From: a virus
DNA length: 22,838 bases
IMG/VR virus record: IMGVR_UViG_3300000230_000355
Location: 1-22,838 of that record
Strand: one strand, 5' to 3'
Shown here: positions 15,869 to 22,772 of the stretch, piece after piece
Numbering within the stretch: the first letter of the stretch is position 1
Layout of the letters: every line of letters begins with the position of its first letter
The notes under the pieces: generated by a model
Told to the model about the DNA's origin: nothing
The model's database searches: none
Seen by the model: the letters and a program-made list of their open reading frames with translations, nothing else
Position numbers and translations under genes: made by a program

Positions 15869-17404
15869 ATGACAATTTATAAATTTTTGCCTTTTTTTGA
15901 AAATAAAAAAAACAAAGCTATGTCAAAAGATTTAAAACCTATTGATGAAAATTCTATTTCATTAAATGAATCTATAAAAGATAATTCTGAACAAGAATTA
16001 CCAATAGACCCAAATGAAGATTCAAATATGGATCAAGATGGCGATAAAATGAAAAATTCAATTCAATTGAGGTTAAAAAGATTTATGGAACACGGGGCTA
16101 TGAAAAAACAACCTTTACCTAAAGTCATGATAAAAAAATCTGATTTAGAAAAACATCCATTTTTTCAATATATACCAATAGACGTTTTTAATAAAATGGT
16201 TAAAAACGATGAAAATTCTGAATTAGAAATTGATGAAAAAGAACTAAAGTACAATTACGAGGATTTGCCTATACAACAAGGTGATTATGTAAGATGTGTA
16301 GATTTTGAAAATTTAAACGACAGACAGATTGAATTTTTAAGAATGTTGCCCTATCATAAAGTAAGATTTGTTACAAACAGTAAAGGTAATCAATTTTATG
16401 AATATGGTGAACCCCACATAGATTTAGGATATAAAATTCCTTTTAAAATGCACAGGTTTGAAAAGGTCGAAAGAACTATAGATAATAAATATAAAATATT
16501 ATTTTTAGAATTCGATTTGCCCATTGACACACATGGTGAAAAAGATGTAAGAAATTTTTTCAAGGGTCATAGTAGAATGCCAGACTTGTTTCAATCTTTA
16601 TTTAAAGAAAAATTATCAGATGTTTTTGTTAACTTCATTTCATATAATGACATTTATAAATTAGGGAATGATTTTTATGCTGATGATATTTTACTTAAAA
16701 AATACGATTTTGTATTTTTTGGCTTTATGTCTAATTTTACTACTATAGTTAAAATGCTTATTTCACATTTAGACGAATATAAAATACCATATCTAAAATA
16801 TGGAACTTATAAAGATTATGATAATAAAGCTTATGAAATGGATTTATTACAAAGATTGGGCTATCCTTATATTCCAACTATAATGGCATCTAAAATCACT
16901 GGTCCTATTTTAAGAAATGTTAAAAGTTTCGGTTTCCCTGTTATAGTAAAAGATATAAATTTAAATAGGGGCGAAGGCGTTTGGAAAGTTGATGACGTTA
17001 ACGGGTTACTTAAGATTTTTTCTAATATGGGTAGGGTATTGTTGATTCAAAAATTCATACCTAACGACGGGGATTATCGTGTTATTACTATAAAAAATAA
17101 AGTTGAACTCGTTATTAAAAAAGAAAGAATTGAAGGCAGCGGTGAATTTAGAGCCAATGTCGCCCGTGGTGGTAAAGCTATTAAAGGAACATTACCAAAT
17201 TACATTATTAAGATGTGTGAAGATGTTTCAAGGCATCTTGTTTGTGATATCGTTGGATTTGATATTATACAAAATAAAGAAACAAGAGAATATTTTATCA
17301 TGGAAACTAATTCCGCCCCCCATTTCCCAACATTTTCTGTAATATCTGGTATTAATATACCTGGCATCATAACAGATTATATTTCAAATATTATTAGAAA
17401 ATGA
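15869..17404 (+). CDS. ATP-grasp ligase, RimK-like
   Basis: The product is 511 aa. The first 100 or so residues are charged and probably disordered (many Asp, Glu, Lys, Asn), followed by a region with a Rossmann-like pre-ATP-grasp domain (KYDFVFFGFMSNFTTIVKML, about 285-305). The C-terminal 190 residues are an ATP-grasp domain. The ATP-binding Lys is in FPVIVKDINLNRGEGVWKV (Lys361) with the flexible Gly-rich loop. The linker strand is VLLIQKFIPNDGDYRVITI, then come VARGGKAIKG, CDIVGFDII and the metal-binding end YFIMETNSAPHF (Glu479, Asn481). This is closest to RimK-type carboxylate-amine ligases, which join amino acids to a protein or peptide through an acyl phosphate. The substrate is unknown. 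M19 (MSKDLKPIDEN) is an alternative start. It ends at a bidirectional terminator shared with the hydrolase gene. Confidence 0.85.
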   Translation: MTIYKFLPFFENKKNKAMSKDLKPIDENSISLNESIKDNSEQELPIDPNEDSNMDQDGDKMKNSIQLRLKRFMEHGAMKKQPLPKVMIKKSDLEKHPFFQYIPIDVFNKMVKNDENSELEIDEKELKYNYEDLPIQQGDYVRCVDFENLNDRQIEFLRMLPYHKVRFVTNSKGNQFYEYGEPHIDLGYKIPFKMHRFEKVERTIDNKYKILFLEFDLPIDTHGEKDVRNFFKGHSRMPDLFQSLFKEKLSDVFVNFISYNDIYKLGNDFYADDILLKKYDFVFFGFMSNFTTIVKMLISHLDEYKIPYLKYGTYKDYDNKAYEMDLLQRLGYPYIPTIMASKITGPILRNVKSFGFPVIVKDINLNRGEGVWKVDDVNGLLKIFSNMGRVLLIQKFIPNDGDYRVITIKNKVELVIKKERIEGSGEFRANVARGGKAIKGTLPNYIIKMCEDVSRHLVCDIVGFDIIQNKETREYFIMETNSAPHFPTFSVISGINIPGIITDYISNIIRK

Positions 17405-18393: not shown

Positions 18394-20166
18394 TTATATA
18401 AGAACACCGTTTGAATCGGTTACGTTGATAGCCATAAATTGTTTTTCAGGGAAATATCCAATATCAGCTACTGCATATCTGCTTCTGATTAACATTCTTG
18501 GTGCCCATGTGGCTTCAGAAATAAGGGAGATTGACTGGGCCATTAAGTAAGGGATGAAAATAAGACCTGGTTGATCCACGCTATTTTTTCTACCTAAATA
18601 AATGTAGTTGTCGTCCCATCTCATATAAGGGTCAACATAAATTGAAATTTGACCGATATTACCCATAGGATAAAGTTGTCCGTTTGTATTCAATTTACCA
18701 GCGTTAACTGGGTTAATAGTATAACCTGCGATATCTTGAATAACAGAAGCTAAGTTACCGTTAGTTACTAAATATTGAGCAGGGCCTACCCTACCATCAG
18801 TAGCAATGAAGTTAGAAGCGTTATTGATTTTAGCAACCAATTTTCTTTGAATTGAATGCGTGGTTTCTCCTTGTGGCGCAGCTGAACTAGCTAAATAAGT
18901 ATCGATGTTTAAATCGAATTTAGATATAGAACTGTTTGGTAATTTAGGAGCGGTATGAGAAGCCCTGTTTTTCAAAGCAAGATTTCTGATTTTACCAACA
19001 ATTTCTTTAGAAATTACTTGGGTAAGTTCATTAACAAGAACTCCTTCTAATTTTTGAACAATATCCATACCTGTTGCAGCTTTGATATCTTCAATTTGGG
19101 TTCTTTTTAAAGTTGATGAAATTTCAACGTCCCCAACTTGAATAGCCTTAGTGAATACATCAGGTCCAATTACACTTGGATACGTTTTTTCATCTTGATA
19201 CCTATTCATAGGTCCTTCCCAACCGTTTTCCATATTTGAAGTCCAACCTGCACTAAATCCAGGAATATGATCTTCTAATAATGAAATCAATTCAATTGTA
19301 TAAGACGTTGAGGTTGTAGTAGCTGTTCCTGTTATTGCTGTGCCCCCAGTTATATGAGTTATGCCACTATCTGCTAAATGAGTAGTAATTGACTCAGTTT
19401 GTGGGAAAGTGTTAAGGGTTTGATCCCAAGCTGATGTCGAGTCTTGTGGAACCATAGAACCTACTGAAAAACCAGCTTGTCTATATATTCTGAACATAGG
19501 ATAACCATCGATTCTTGAAAAACCAAGAAATTCCATAAAATTAGCCATAGAAGTAGTTCCGGTTGGACCAATTGTTAAGTAAGCTGAAGTTGAAGTTGGG
19601 CCTGTTCCGATAGAAACCCAAGTCCTTTTTGATAAACCCCCAACTCTTTCTTGAATACCCAACAAACTAAGTTGTTTTTGAATCCCTTCTTTTAAAGCTA
19701 AATCGTTAGCTTCAGTTCTAGTTTTCAATTTAAAAACAAGAGGTCTTTGTCTTTTATCCTCATCACCTAAATAAGTGCCACCTTCATTATAAGCATTATC
19801 GTATTTAAAATCAACGAATAATAATTCAATTCTAGGTGAAGCTGTAGGCTTAACAGCTACTAAATTTAAACCGATAGCTTCAGCTGCTATTTTCATAGAA
19901 ACTGGAAGAAGATTTTGAGCGACGTCACCACTGCCTAAAATACCATCACCTTGCCAAGTAGCACCTGGAGTTGTTGATACTGTAGGAGCTTTTATATAAC
20001 CTGCTCCATTTTGATTTAATGTTGCGAACCCAACATTTTCATTCATTTGATGCATTTCTGCATACTCGGCCATCCATGATCTTTTATCATCATCAACTAC
20101 TTTAAGATGATCAAGAATAGGACCCCATTTTTTAACCGCTTTTGCGTTGTCTACTATGTAATTCAT
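18394..20166 (-). CDS. gp23: Major capsid protein, T4 gp23-like
   Basis: This 590-aa protein is slightly longer than T4 gp23 (521 aa). Family features are the N-terminal AVKKWGPILDHLKVVDDD, where T4 has LLNKWKPLLE. A G/A-rich segment ending NLLPVSMKIAAEAIGLNLVA follows, corresponding to the gp23 region after the propeptide (ship-in-bottle P and N domains). Near the C-terminus are QIEDIKAATGMDIVQKLEG and GQISIYVDPYMRWDDNYIYL, typical of gp23. The expected propeptide cleavage would fall in the first 65 residues; HQMNENVGF (about residues 39-47) contains the only (hydrophobic)-x-Glu site near a plausible position, so Glu42 is a candidate. Base composition is less AT-rich and codon use looks tuned for high expression. 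It lies directly downstream of the protease-scaffold gene with its own strong promoter. Confidence 0.96.
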   Translation of the reverse strand: MNYIVDNAKAVKKWGPILDHLKVVDDDKRSWMAEYAEMHQMNENVGFATLNQNGAGYIKAPTVSTTPGATWQGDGILGSGDVAQNLLPVSMKIAAEAIGLNLVAVKPTASPRIELLFVDFKYDNAYNEGGTYLGDEDKRQRPLVFKLKTRTEANDLALKEGIQKQLSLLGIQERVGGLSKRTWVSIGTGPTSTSAYLTIGPTGTTSMANFMEFLGFSRIDGYPMFRIYRQAGFSVGSMVPQDSTSAWDQTLNTFPQTESITTHLADSGITHITGGTAITGTATTTSTSYTIELISLLEDHIPGFSAGWTSNMENGWEGPMNRYQDEKTYPSVIGPDVFTKAIQVGDVEISSTLKRTQIEDIKAATGMDIVQKLEGVLVNELTQVISKEIVGKIRNLALKNRASHTAPKLPNSSISKFDLNIDTYLASSAAPQGETTHSIQRKLVAKINNASNFIATDGRVGPAQYLVTNGNLASVIQDIAGYTINPVNAGKLNTNGQLYPMGNIGQISIYVDPYMRWDDNYIYLGRKNSVDQPGLIFIPYLMAQSISLISEATWAPRMLIRSRYAVADIGYFPEKQFMAINVTDSNGVLI

Positions 20167-20246: not shown

Positions 20247-22715
20247 TTATTTTTGCAATTTTTTTAAATATGCATTTAATTGTTCATCGCTGAGTTTAGT
20301 ATTATCGAAACTATTTTTATTTTCTTTCAATAATGTAACTTTACCCATGTTACTTTTTGCATATTCGTGAAGGTTTCTACTGTTCCAGAAACTTTCCATT
20401 TTTTCCTCTGACAAGTTAGAATAGAATTGCGCACTACTCAAAACGCTGCCCTGCACCACTGGATTTAAACTTTCCCAAATAGGTCTTAATTCTGATGGGA
20501 TGTTGTCAATCAATTTGTCATTAAAGCTTCTTTCTTTTACGGATAATGATTTAGCCATAATTTTAAGAACTTCACTTTCTGTTGTATAATTGCCACTTTC
20601 GTTCATTGCAACAATCACTTTTTCTTTATCGCTTTTTGATAGGTTGTAATAAGCAGCCTTTTTCTTTTCCGACAAGAATAATAAAAAGTGTGGTTCATCG
20701 TTTTTTGAAGCCTCTCGTTTTTTGGATTCATTTATTTGCTTTAAGATCAATTTTTTTAATTTATTTTCAGATTCATAGATTTTGTCACCGATTGGTTTCA
20801 ACCTAGATTCTTGAATTTCTCTAACTTCACCGGTGTCTGATAATTTTATAACAGCTACACCATTGTCTGAATTTATTGCTAATATTTCACCTGTCTTATC
20901 ATCGTCTATTTTAACAACTTGACCTGGTGTTAATTGAATACCTTCCATATCATCATCAACTTCTGTTGAATTTACACCATCAATATCAATATCATCATCG
21001 TCATCAATATCATCTTCCATGTCATCATATTGGCCTTGAACAGGTTGTGCTTGACCTTGGACTGGTTGACGTTGTGCTTGACCTTGTACTGGTTGACGTT
21101 GTGCTTGACCTTGAATAGGTTGAGCTTGACCTTGGATAGGTTGTGCTTGTGTCATATCATCTTCTGAATCATCATCATCTTCATAATATTTAGAAATAGA
21201 ATTTGTTTTAAAATCGCCCATTTTAGCTTCAGGGGATTCGATAGATTCATTAATATAACCACCTTTTGAGTTTAATTTTTTAGCTACATATTTGCCATAT
21301 TCGATATTTTTATCAATAGCTTCAGCTAAATAATTACCATATGCAATATTATCGGTTAAATTTTCAGCTACATATTCAGTATATTTAATACTGTTATCTA
21401 ATTGTTCACCAACATATTCAGTGTATTTGATGCTATTATCAACTTGTTCGCCAACGTATTCAGTATATCTGATTCCGTTATCAACGTGTTCAGCGATATA
21501 TTCAGCATATTTAATATTATTATCAACTTGTTCAGCTACATATTCGCTATAAGATATATTTCTATCAAGATTTTCAGCGATGTATTTTGAATAATCGATG
21601 TTTTTATCAAGATTTTCAGCGATGTATTCAGAATATTGAATAGTGTGTTCTACATTTTCAGCAATATATTCTGAGAAATCAATAGTTTTATCTAAAGTTT
21701 CAGCAATATAATTAGAATAATTGATATTTTTATCAACATTTTCTGCTATATATTCTGTATAATTAATAGCTTTTTCAAGCTCGCCTGCCAAATAATCATT
21801 ATGTTCGATTATTTTTTCAGTTTTAGTGTTAGTTTTTTTAAAATTACTTTCTAACTTCATATTAGTTTTTTTAATCCTATTATTTTCCTGAACCAATACT
21901 TGCATAGATTCGGCTAAATAATCAAGATAAGAAGAAATCTTTTTAAATCCTTCTTCGAAGGAATCATATTTTTCATATAAATCACCCAATTTATCAGGAT
22001 CATAATCGCCCTTTTTAAGAGCTTCATTGATCGCTTTTTTTTGTTTTGATAATTGTTGTGATAAATAATTCGAATATTGTTCCATTTGTTTTTTTGTTAC
22101 AAATTCATTTTTATCCATGTTGAACAATTCGTTTATTTTTGACTCGTCGGATACATCATATATCCTAAAGTTAGCACTTTCGTTAAACCCCAAAGATTCA
22201 TTAATTGTGCGCAATTCCATTTTTGCAGAACTGAATCCGGGATCAGCAACTGCATCATATGTGAATAATTTTTTAATCGTTACTTCACCATTCGACTCGG
22301 TTACCCCAGCCGCACGTGATGAAATAAAAATAGGACAATCGTCGTCAATTAAAGATTGTGCTTCTTTTCCCCAATGCGTATTTAGCAATTTAATTTCGCC
22401 ATCTACCCTGTTTGAGGCTTTTACAAAAAAAGCATTTTCTACTGTATGCGACACTCGTCCTAAACTAGTATCAAGAACATCAGGATGGTCAAATTCACCA
22501 TATATTACACCCAATGTCTTTTTTCTTTCTAATAATTCATTTAAATGGGGTAAAAATTTATCAGCTTGATATATTCTTTCGTTTCTATTTTTCACATTAA
22601 ATTCTGTGAAAATACCACCTAAAATATATTGTCTCTTTCCGGTATGAGTAACTGATTCGTTAACTTTTTTTAACCCATTTGTTGAATTTTCAACAATAAG
22701 AATATTTTTTATCAT
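20247..22715 (-). CDS. gp21: Prohead protease (T4 gp21-like) fused to a repeat-rich scaffold-like protein
   Basis: From the ATG at 22715 the product is 822 aa. An upstream ATG at 22772 is rejected because it lies inside the promoter box. Residues 30-150 form a gp21-type serine protease. RQYILGGIFTEFNVKNRNER aligns with the gp21 start, GEFDHP supplies His77 and FISSRAAG supplies the nucleophile (Ser132 or Ser133). From about 200 the chain is helical. Residues 305-486 are thirteen 14-residue repeats of the form Y-(S/T)-E-Y-(I/V)-(A/G)-E-x-(L/V)-D-x-x-I. A Gln/Pro repeat (AQPIQGQ), an acidic run (DDDDDID) and a KOW/SH3-like segment (LTPGQVVKIDDDKTGEILAI) follow, then a helical C-terminus. T4 encodes protease gp21 and scaffold gp22 separately; here one polypeptide appears to hold both. 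It lies upstream of the capsid gene on the same strand. Confidence 0.88.
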   Translation of the reverse strand: MIKNILIVENSTNGLKKVNESVTHTGKRQYILGGIFTEFNVKNRNERIYQADKFLPHLNELLERKKTLGVIYGEFDHPDVLDTSLGRVSHTVENAFFVKASNRVDGEIKLLNTHWGKEAQSLIDDDCPIFISSRAAGVTESNGEVTIKKLFTYDAVADPGFSSAKMELRTINESLGFNESANFRIYDVSDESKINELFNMDKNEFVTKKQMEQYSNYLSQQLSKQKKAINEALKKGDYDPDKLGDLYEKYDSFEEGFKKISSYLDYLAESMQVLVQENNRIKKTNMKLESNFKKTNTKTEKIIEHNDYLAGELEKAINYTEYIAENVDKNINYSNYIAETLDKTIDFSEYIAENVEHTIQYSEYIAENLDKNIDYSKYIAENLDRNISYSEYVAEQVDNNIKYAEYIAEHVDNGIRYTEYVGEQVDNSIKYTEYVGEQLDNSIKYTEYVAENLTDNIAYGNYLAEAIDKNIEYGKYVAKKLNSKGGYINESIESPEAKMGDFKTNSISKYYEDDDDSEDDMTQAQPIQGQAQPIQGQAQRQPVQGQAQRQPVQGQAQPVQGQYDDMEDDIDDDDDIDIDGVNSTEVDDDMEGIQLTPGQVVKIDDDKTGEILAINSDNGVAVIKLSDTGEVREIQESRLKPIGDKIYESENKLKKLILKQINESKKREASKNDEPHFLLFLSEKKKAAYYNLSKSDKEKVIVAMNESGNYTTESEVLKIMAKSLSVKERSFNDKLIDNIPSELRPIWESLNPVVQGSVLSSAQFYSNLSEEKMESFWNSRNLHEYAKSNMGKVTLLKENKNSFDNTKLSDEQLNAYLKKLQK
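21032..21150 (-). repeat. Short tandem repeats encoding AQPxQGQ
   Basis: Five 21-24-base units encode QAQPIQGQ / QAQRQPVQGQ-type segments in the protease-scaffold gene. Near-identity of the DNA between units indicates recent slippage, and length variation between related phages is expected. Confidence 0.8.
21258..21803 (-). repeat. Thirteen 42-bp repeats encoding a 14-residue coiled-coil-like unit
   Basis: Thirteen consecutive units of exactly 42 bases with no insertions encode a regular 14-residue period (two heptads). Examples are YTEYIAENVDKNIN and YSEYIAENLDKNID. Tyr at positions 1 and 4, a branched residue at 5, Glu at 7, Leu/Val at 9 and Ile at 13 are conserved. The first (HNDYLAGELEKAIN) and last (YGKYVAKKL) units are diverged. 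Codons differ between units, so the repeat is maintained at protein level rather than being very recent. Confidence 0.92.
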
Positions 22716-22732
22716 TATCGATACATTTATTT

Positions 22733-22772
22733 TGTTATTATATATTTTAATAAAAATGTCATTTTTTTCCAT
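22733..22772 (-). promoter_or_regulatory. Strong phage-type promoter for the protease-scaffold gene
   Basis: On the minus strand ATGGAAAAAAATGAC (to 22758) is followed by 12 bases and ATATATAATAAC. It is nearly identical to the first of the tandem promoters at 11971. An in-frame ATG (22772) lies within the box, but transcription would start downstream of it, so translation must begin at 22715. Confidence 0.78.

Follow-up and report, generated by a model that had tools for sequence, protein, structure and literature searches.

A T4-type prohead protease fused to a putative Mahaphage head scaffold whose 14-residue units may mark it for removal

Why would a phage place a protease and a long run of short repeats on one chain, directly beside its capsid gene? 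The question is raised by a 22.8-kb virus fragment (IMGVR_UViG_3300000230_000355), all 22,838 nt of which form the window analysed here. One gene in the window (20247..22715) encodes an 822-aa fusion of a protease and a putative scaffold. Its start at 22715 is backed by the start points of homologues; the open reading frame spans 20247-22772, and an in-frame ATG further upstream, at 22772, would give 841 aa. The fusion gene lies directly upstream of a major capsid gene of the gp23 family (18394..20166; Pfam Gp23, 4.6e-26). The fusion with all its parts, the capsid gene and the predicted site in it are encoded on the minus strand. A separate scaffold gene between the protease and the capsid gene was not found in the window. 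T4 gp22 is characterized by its position between the protease gene and the major capsid gene, and in the window this position is taken by a part of the protease fusion.

Judged by its capsid and protease proteins, which are close to those of 634-735 kb genomes, the window is a member of the Mahaphage clade, among relatives of the largest phages known. The fusion and the capsid protein come closest to those of the 735-kb LR756501 and LR756503, with 81% and 77% identity; genomes of 635-642 kb and of 462 kb come next. Mahaphage is a clade name of Al-Shayeb et al., and the predicted hosts are Bacteroidetes (PMC7162821). Elsewhere in the window, a DNA polymerase B reading frame (12178-13686) holds the exonuclease and only the beginning of the polymerase domain; it ends at position 504 of the 856 of phrog_262, which suggests that the polymerase gene is split. 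A RimK-like ATP-grasp gene (15869-17404) lies close to the head genes.

By family, the N-terminal domain of the fusion (residues 21-173; 22197..22655) is a T4-type prohead protease (gp21, Peptidase S77). It matches phrog_207 at 1.2e-28, and its predicted fold matches T4 gp21 (5jbl) in Foldseek with an E-value of 1e-6 and a target TM-score of 0.67-0.69. The Pfam S77 model gives 16.8 bits for the window protein, under the cut-off, and 52.4 bits, above the cut-off, for a homologue (L152). The motifs GE-x-x-HP and SSR are invariant in the homologue alignment; they contain His77 and Ser132/133, which correspond by motif to His85 and Ser140 of T4. A sequence-only reading of this DNA had placed a protease on the same chain as the repeat, and these matches bear it out.

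The repeat array comprises 13 ungapped units of 14 residues with the pattern x-Y-x-E-Y-[ILV]-A-E-x-[LV]-D-x-x-I (residues 304-485; 21261..21806). Thirteen units had already been counted in the sequence-only reading, which gave the same array shifted by one codon (21258-21803); its count of seven I/L-A-E and four V-A/G-E tripeptides at one unit position is exact in register. Six units carry I-A-E, one L-A-E, two V-A-E and two V-G-E, that is, 11 of 13, and the Glu is missing from unit 1 (YLAG) and unit 13 (YVAK). The array is neither chance nor low complexity. Identity at a lag of 14 residues is 0.565, whereas 10,000 shuffles average 0.083 and never exceed 0.179. The 11 [ILV]xE motifs share a single phase, where shuffles reach at most five. 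Tandem Repeats Finder independently recovers the 42-bp period. Recent homogenisation does not account for the conservation of the units: between genomes, orthologous units are more alike (identity 0.73) than non-orthologous ones (0.55), and they are also more alike than paralogous units within one protein.

The array is part of a longer region (residues 203-483; 21267..22109) predicted to form a helical rod with two interruptions. In the AlphaFold2 model, for which the input alignment left out the phage-record loci, most of this region is helix. The array itself is modelled with low confidence (pLDDT about 40-60), which is not surprising for an oligomeric helix taken on its own. The main harmonic of hydropathy lies at 3.5 residues, proline is absent from the homologue arrays, which together hold 8,106 residues, outlying units are mostly offset by 28, 42 or 49 residues (multiples of seven), and one array (L002) contains a 7-residue insertion. 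Hence, the predicted rod fits a coiled-coil-like structure with two heptads per unit. The repeat had been called rod-like from the letters alone, and structure prediction and periodicity agree in pointing to a helix with a heptad period.

Protein families do not identify this rod. Neither the rod nor the C-terminus matched the T4_CASP or gp22 (phrog_237) scaffold families at E-values up to 1, and the PDB sequences that match the helical region belong to designed helical proteins. We found nothing relevant on a 14-residue phage scaffold repeat in the open-access literature. We infer a scaffold role from the protease fusion, from where the gene lies and from the helix prediction rather than from a family match.

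Outside the array, the fusion contains conserved sites of the form hydrophobic-Asn-Glu/Ser: VNE20, INE173, INE490, INE663 and MNE706. The first three flank the protease and the array. VNE20/S (22656..22664; Glu 98% and P3 hydrophobic in 48 homologues) is the predicted cut that would free an N-terminal propeptide, INE173/S (22197..22205; Glu in 48/48, P3 L/I/M/V) is a predicted autocleavage site at the C-terminal border of the protease, and INE490/S (21246..21254; Glu 98% in 48 homologues) is a predicted cut site directly after the array. Seven hNE[SNA] motifs (h, hydrophobic) are observed outside the array, while 0.23 are expected. The chain continues with an acidic, Gln/Pro-rich linker predicted to be disordered (20925..21245; pLDDT about 25 at residues 510-590), in which a 27-bp tandem repeat encoding Gln, Pro and Gly occupies 21030-21149. 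It is followed by a small beta barrel, Tudor/KOW-like by a weak Foldseek match (20793..20924; E 0.02-0.1), and by a C-terminal domain that is conserved in the homologue alignment and helical in the AlphaFold2 model (20250..20786). This domain holds INE663, MNE706 and a further hydrophobic-x-Glu site, LKE798.

The capsid protein carries the same type of site. Near its N-terminus, 134 of 135 capsid homologues have a conserved [LIMV]-x-E with Asn or Ser as the next residue; in the window this is MNE43/N (20038..20046), a maturation site predicted by position and conservation. A capsid site that departs from hydrophobic-x-Glu had been named beforehand as grounds for abandoning the idea of a cleaved repeat, and the predicted site follows the rule.

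In T4, gp21 cuts after L/I-x-E, and gp22 is broken into many pieces (PMC9026906; PMC9958956). A computed digest of the fusion at every hydrophobic-x-Glu yields ten 14-residue array peptides of 1571-1696 Da, for example NLDKNIDYSKYIAE with an average mass of 1685.8 Da. We propose, with a probability of about 0.7, that a T4-type protease is fused to the head scaffold of a Mahaphage and that this one protease cuts both the capsid protein and a rod of 14-residue units that thereby removes itself. The helical rod of two-heptad units would assemble the prohead core. The protease would then free itself at the conserved hydrophobic-Asn-Glu/Ser sites flanking its domain and cut the capsid protein at the same type of site. 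It would also cut the rod at hydrophobic-Ala-Glu in almost every unit, and the resulting peptides of about 14 residues (1.6-1.7 kDa) would leave the head before DNA packaging. In this way, a single unit probably serves both to build the core and to mark it for its later removal. All these phages are uncultured, and the evidence for cleavage is sequence conservation.

Conservation can be explained in another way. The unit could be a purely structural coiled-coil repeat in which the Glu and the hydrophobic residue serve helix packing, for example through Tyr/His-Glu hydrogen bonds from one helix to its neighbour, with the rod removed by cuts at the hydrophobic-Asn-Glu border sites alone. Conservation among close relatives alone cannot separate structure from cleavage. 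Across 579 units, the Glu is kept in 98%, Tyr5 in 99%, Ala7 in 95% and I, L or V before the Ala in 99%, and Tyr5 and Tyr2 change on the tree (3 and 4 times) as rarely as the Glu (4 times). Part of the pattern therefore appears to be structural, since these tyrosines are about as constrained as the Glu. Their strong retention, the heptad-scale period with its 7-residue insertion and the proline-free, predicted helical array are what a structural repeat would show. It is less able to explain that neither Asp nor Gln occurs at the Glu position in any of these 579 units, or that unit position 1 varies freely although, with a period of 3.5, it would lie at the same angle of the helix.

The distant clade, which we reached via the 462-kb genome, is more informative (277 unique units). 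Here, the Glu is the best-conserved position (94%) and P3, the residue two before the Glu, is I, L, V or M in 274 of 277 units (99%), while Tyr5 falls to 72% and Ala7 to 73%; the L/V position is 36% Leu and 30% Val, and the last Ile is kept in 56%. On the tree of the protease domain, P3 does not change at all (ILVM merged) and the Glu changes 4 times, compared to 7 for Tyr5, 8 for Tyr2 and 18 for the Ala. Because Glu and P3 are kept while Tyr and Ala vary, the constraint on the unit has, as far as these alignments go, the form hydrophobic-x-Glu. Selection has kept this form in the unit as well as in the capsid protein. Nor is the Glu retained merely as a partner of Tyr/His or Ala: among distant units, 17 of the 20 that lack Tyr or His at position 5 still have it, as do 71 of the 75 that lack the Ala. 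Cutting within the units is well supported by this conservation and also agrees with a gene order like that of T4 genes 21-22-23; a unit with a packing role only is the weaker reading, unlikely but alive. Several observations speak against cutting. The array lies in a predicted helix, whereas proteases usually need an extended stretch, and the rod lacks a scaffold-family match. Val at P3 is rare in the capsid protein (3 of 135 sites) but occurs in 13% of close-relative and 28% of distant-clade units. LR756500 has lost the Glu from 5 of 11 units; a period kept without its Glu had been proposed as a refutation, and it is found, only in part, in this one genome (Glu in 6 of 11 units) but not otherwise. 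The unit, with the Glu mostly present, also occurs in a few small proteins.

These small Mahaphage proteins are otherwise unrelated and contain one to four similar 14-residue units, often but not always with the Glu (L236, 1123-1743; L237, 1453-1704; L242, 1243-1872; L280; L281; L282). Proteins of 207 and 80 aa in LR756501 and of 83 aa in LR745206 are among them, and their function is unassigned.

Two further roles can be considered. The rod could be an internal head protein, not a transient scaffold, that is kept in the virion or ejected, much as some core proteins of T4-like and giant phages stay in the head after processing (PMC9026906). We regard this as very unlikely: the protease fusion and the order of the genes are those of a scaffold, and between protease and capsid gene the window has no other scaffold gene. 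Alternatively, the array could be a ruler, with unit number setting core length and thereby head size, as the sequence-only reading had suggested for head length. The largest genome (735 kb) indeed has the most units among complete genomes. Yet across the complete genomes of 735, 642, 636, 635 and 462 kb the unit numbers are 13, 11, 10, 11 and 11, and a 541-kb Lak genome has none. Proteins of clade B mostly have 8-13 units, on contigs that are mostly fragments, so that genome sizes are not known. With no trend over six complete genomes, a small sample related by descent, we reject a ruler as highly improbable.

A fusion makes protease and scaffold in a one-to-one ratio. In T4 the two are unequal, with about 55-100 gp21 to about 580 gp22 (PMC9958956; PMC5694885). 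A conserved internal methionine, Met200 (22116..22118), is a candidate start from which the scaffold could be made alone. All 116 homologues examined have a Met 9-18 residues ahead of the helix or rod, inside a linker whose sequence and length vary. Like that before the true starts of these genes, the DNA preceding this Met is G-poor (0.08 versus 0.18-0.20 at other internal Mets) and without Shine-Dalgarno-like sites. Its A content equals that of true starts in the distant clade (0.60 versus 0.57) but not in the close clade (0.42 versus 0.60). These features suggest that initiation at Met200 may yield scaffold without protease, which in the window would be a protein of 623 aa. One could go further and imagine a scaffold that is made both with the protease and, by initiation at Met200, without it, whose rod-building unit has its own cleavage site and whose core takes up the small unit-bearing proteins, with their one to four copies of the unit, as they pack against the rod. 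As a whole this extension is speculative and rather unlikely; if true, it would be a new scaffold class with one unit for both building and cutting.

Among the closest known systems, T4 gp21 and gp22 share with the fusion the protease fold (5jbl), the order before a gp23-type capsid gene and the hydrophobic-x-Glu cleavage rule. Like the rod, gp22 is a helix-rich scaffold with several I/L-A-E sites. In contrast, T4 uses two separate genes, gp22 has no tandem array, and the rod does not match the T4_CASP/gp22 families. Protease and scaffold region are joined in one chain in the Bacteroidetes phages PTm1 and pT24 of Tenacibaculum and MA9V-2 of Chryseobacterium; in MA9V-2 we did not find a 14-residue array. 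The MA9V-2 fusion (L075, 4120-7740, about 1,207 aa) contains 13 hNE[SNA] motifs (0.5 expected), and a domain inserted in it matches DUF5856. Lak phages, members of the Mahaphage clade with genomes of about 540 kb, have a homologous protease (40% identity) and a related capsid protein, but their middle region is acidic and of low complexity, without 14-residue units. Phage records that match the array at an E-value of 1e-3 are all huge-phage records. Lambda C/Nu3 and herpesvirus UL26/UL26.5 are protease/scaffold genes with an internal start, and they would parallel the candidate start at Met200 in gene layout. In phiKZ and SPN3US, a Glu-directed prohead protease cuts head propeptides at several sites each (PMC5694885; PMC10052503); unlike in the array, the cuts are spread out instead of falling once in each structural repeat, and the motif is S/A-x-E.

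The system is a variant of the T4 strategy of protease plus scaffold, new in form. For Mahaphages, it names a scaffold candidate whose conservation extends over more than 100 of the clade's fusion proteins that we examined. Exact peptide masses are now available for the array of this putative scaffold. Its cut sites are predicted residue by residue, and the tandem unit could couple the building of the core to its removal.
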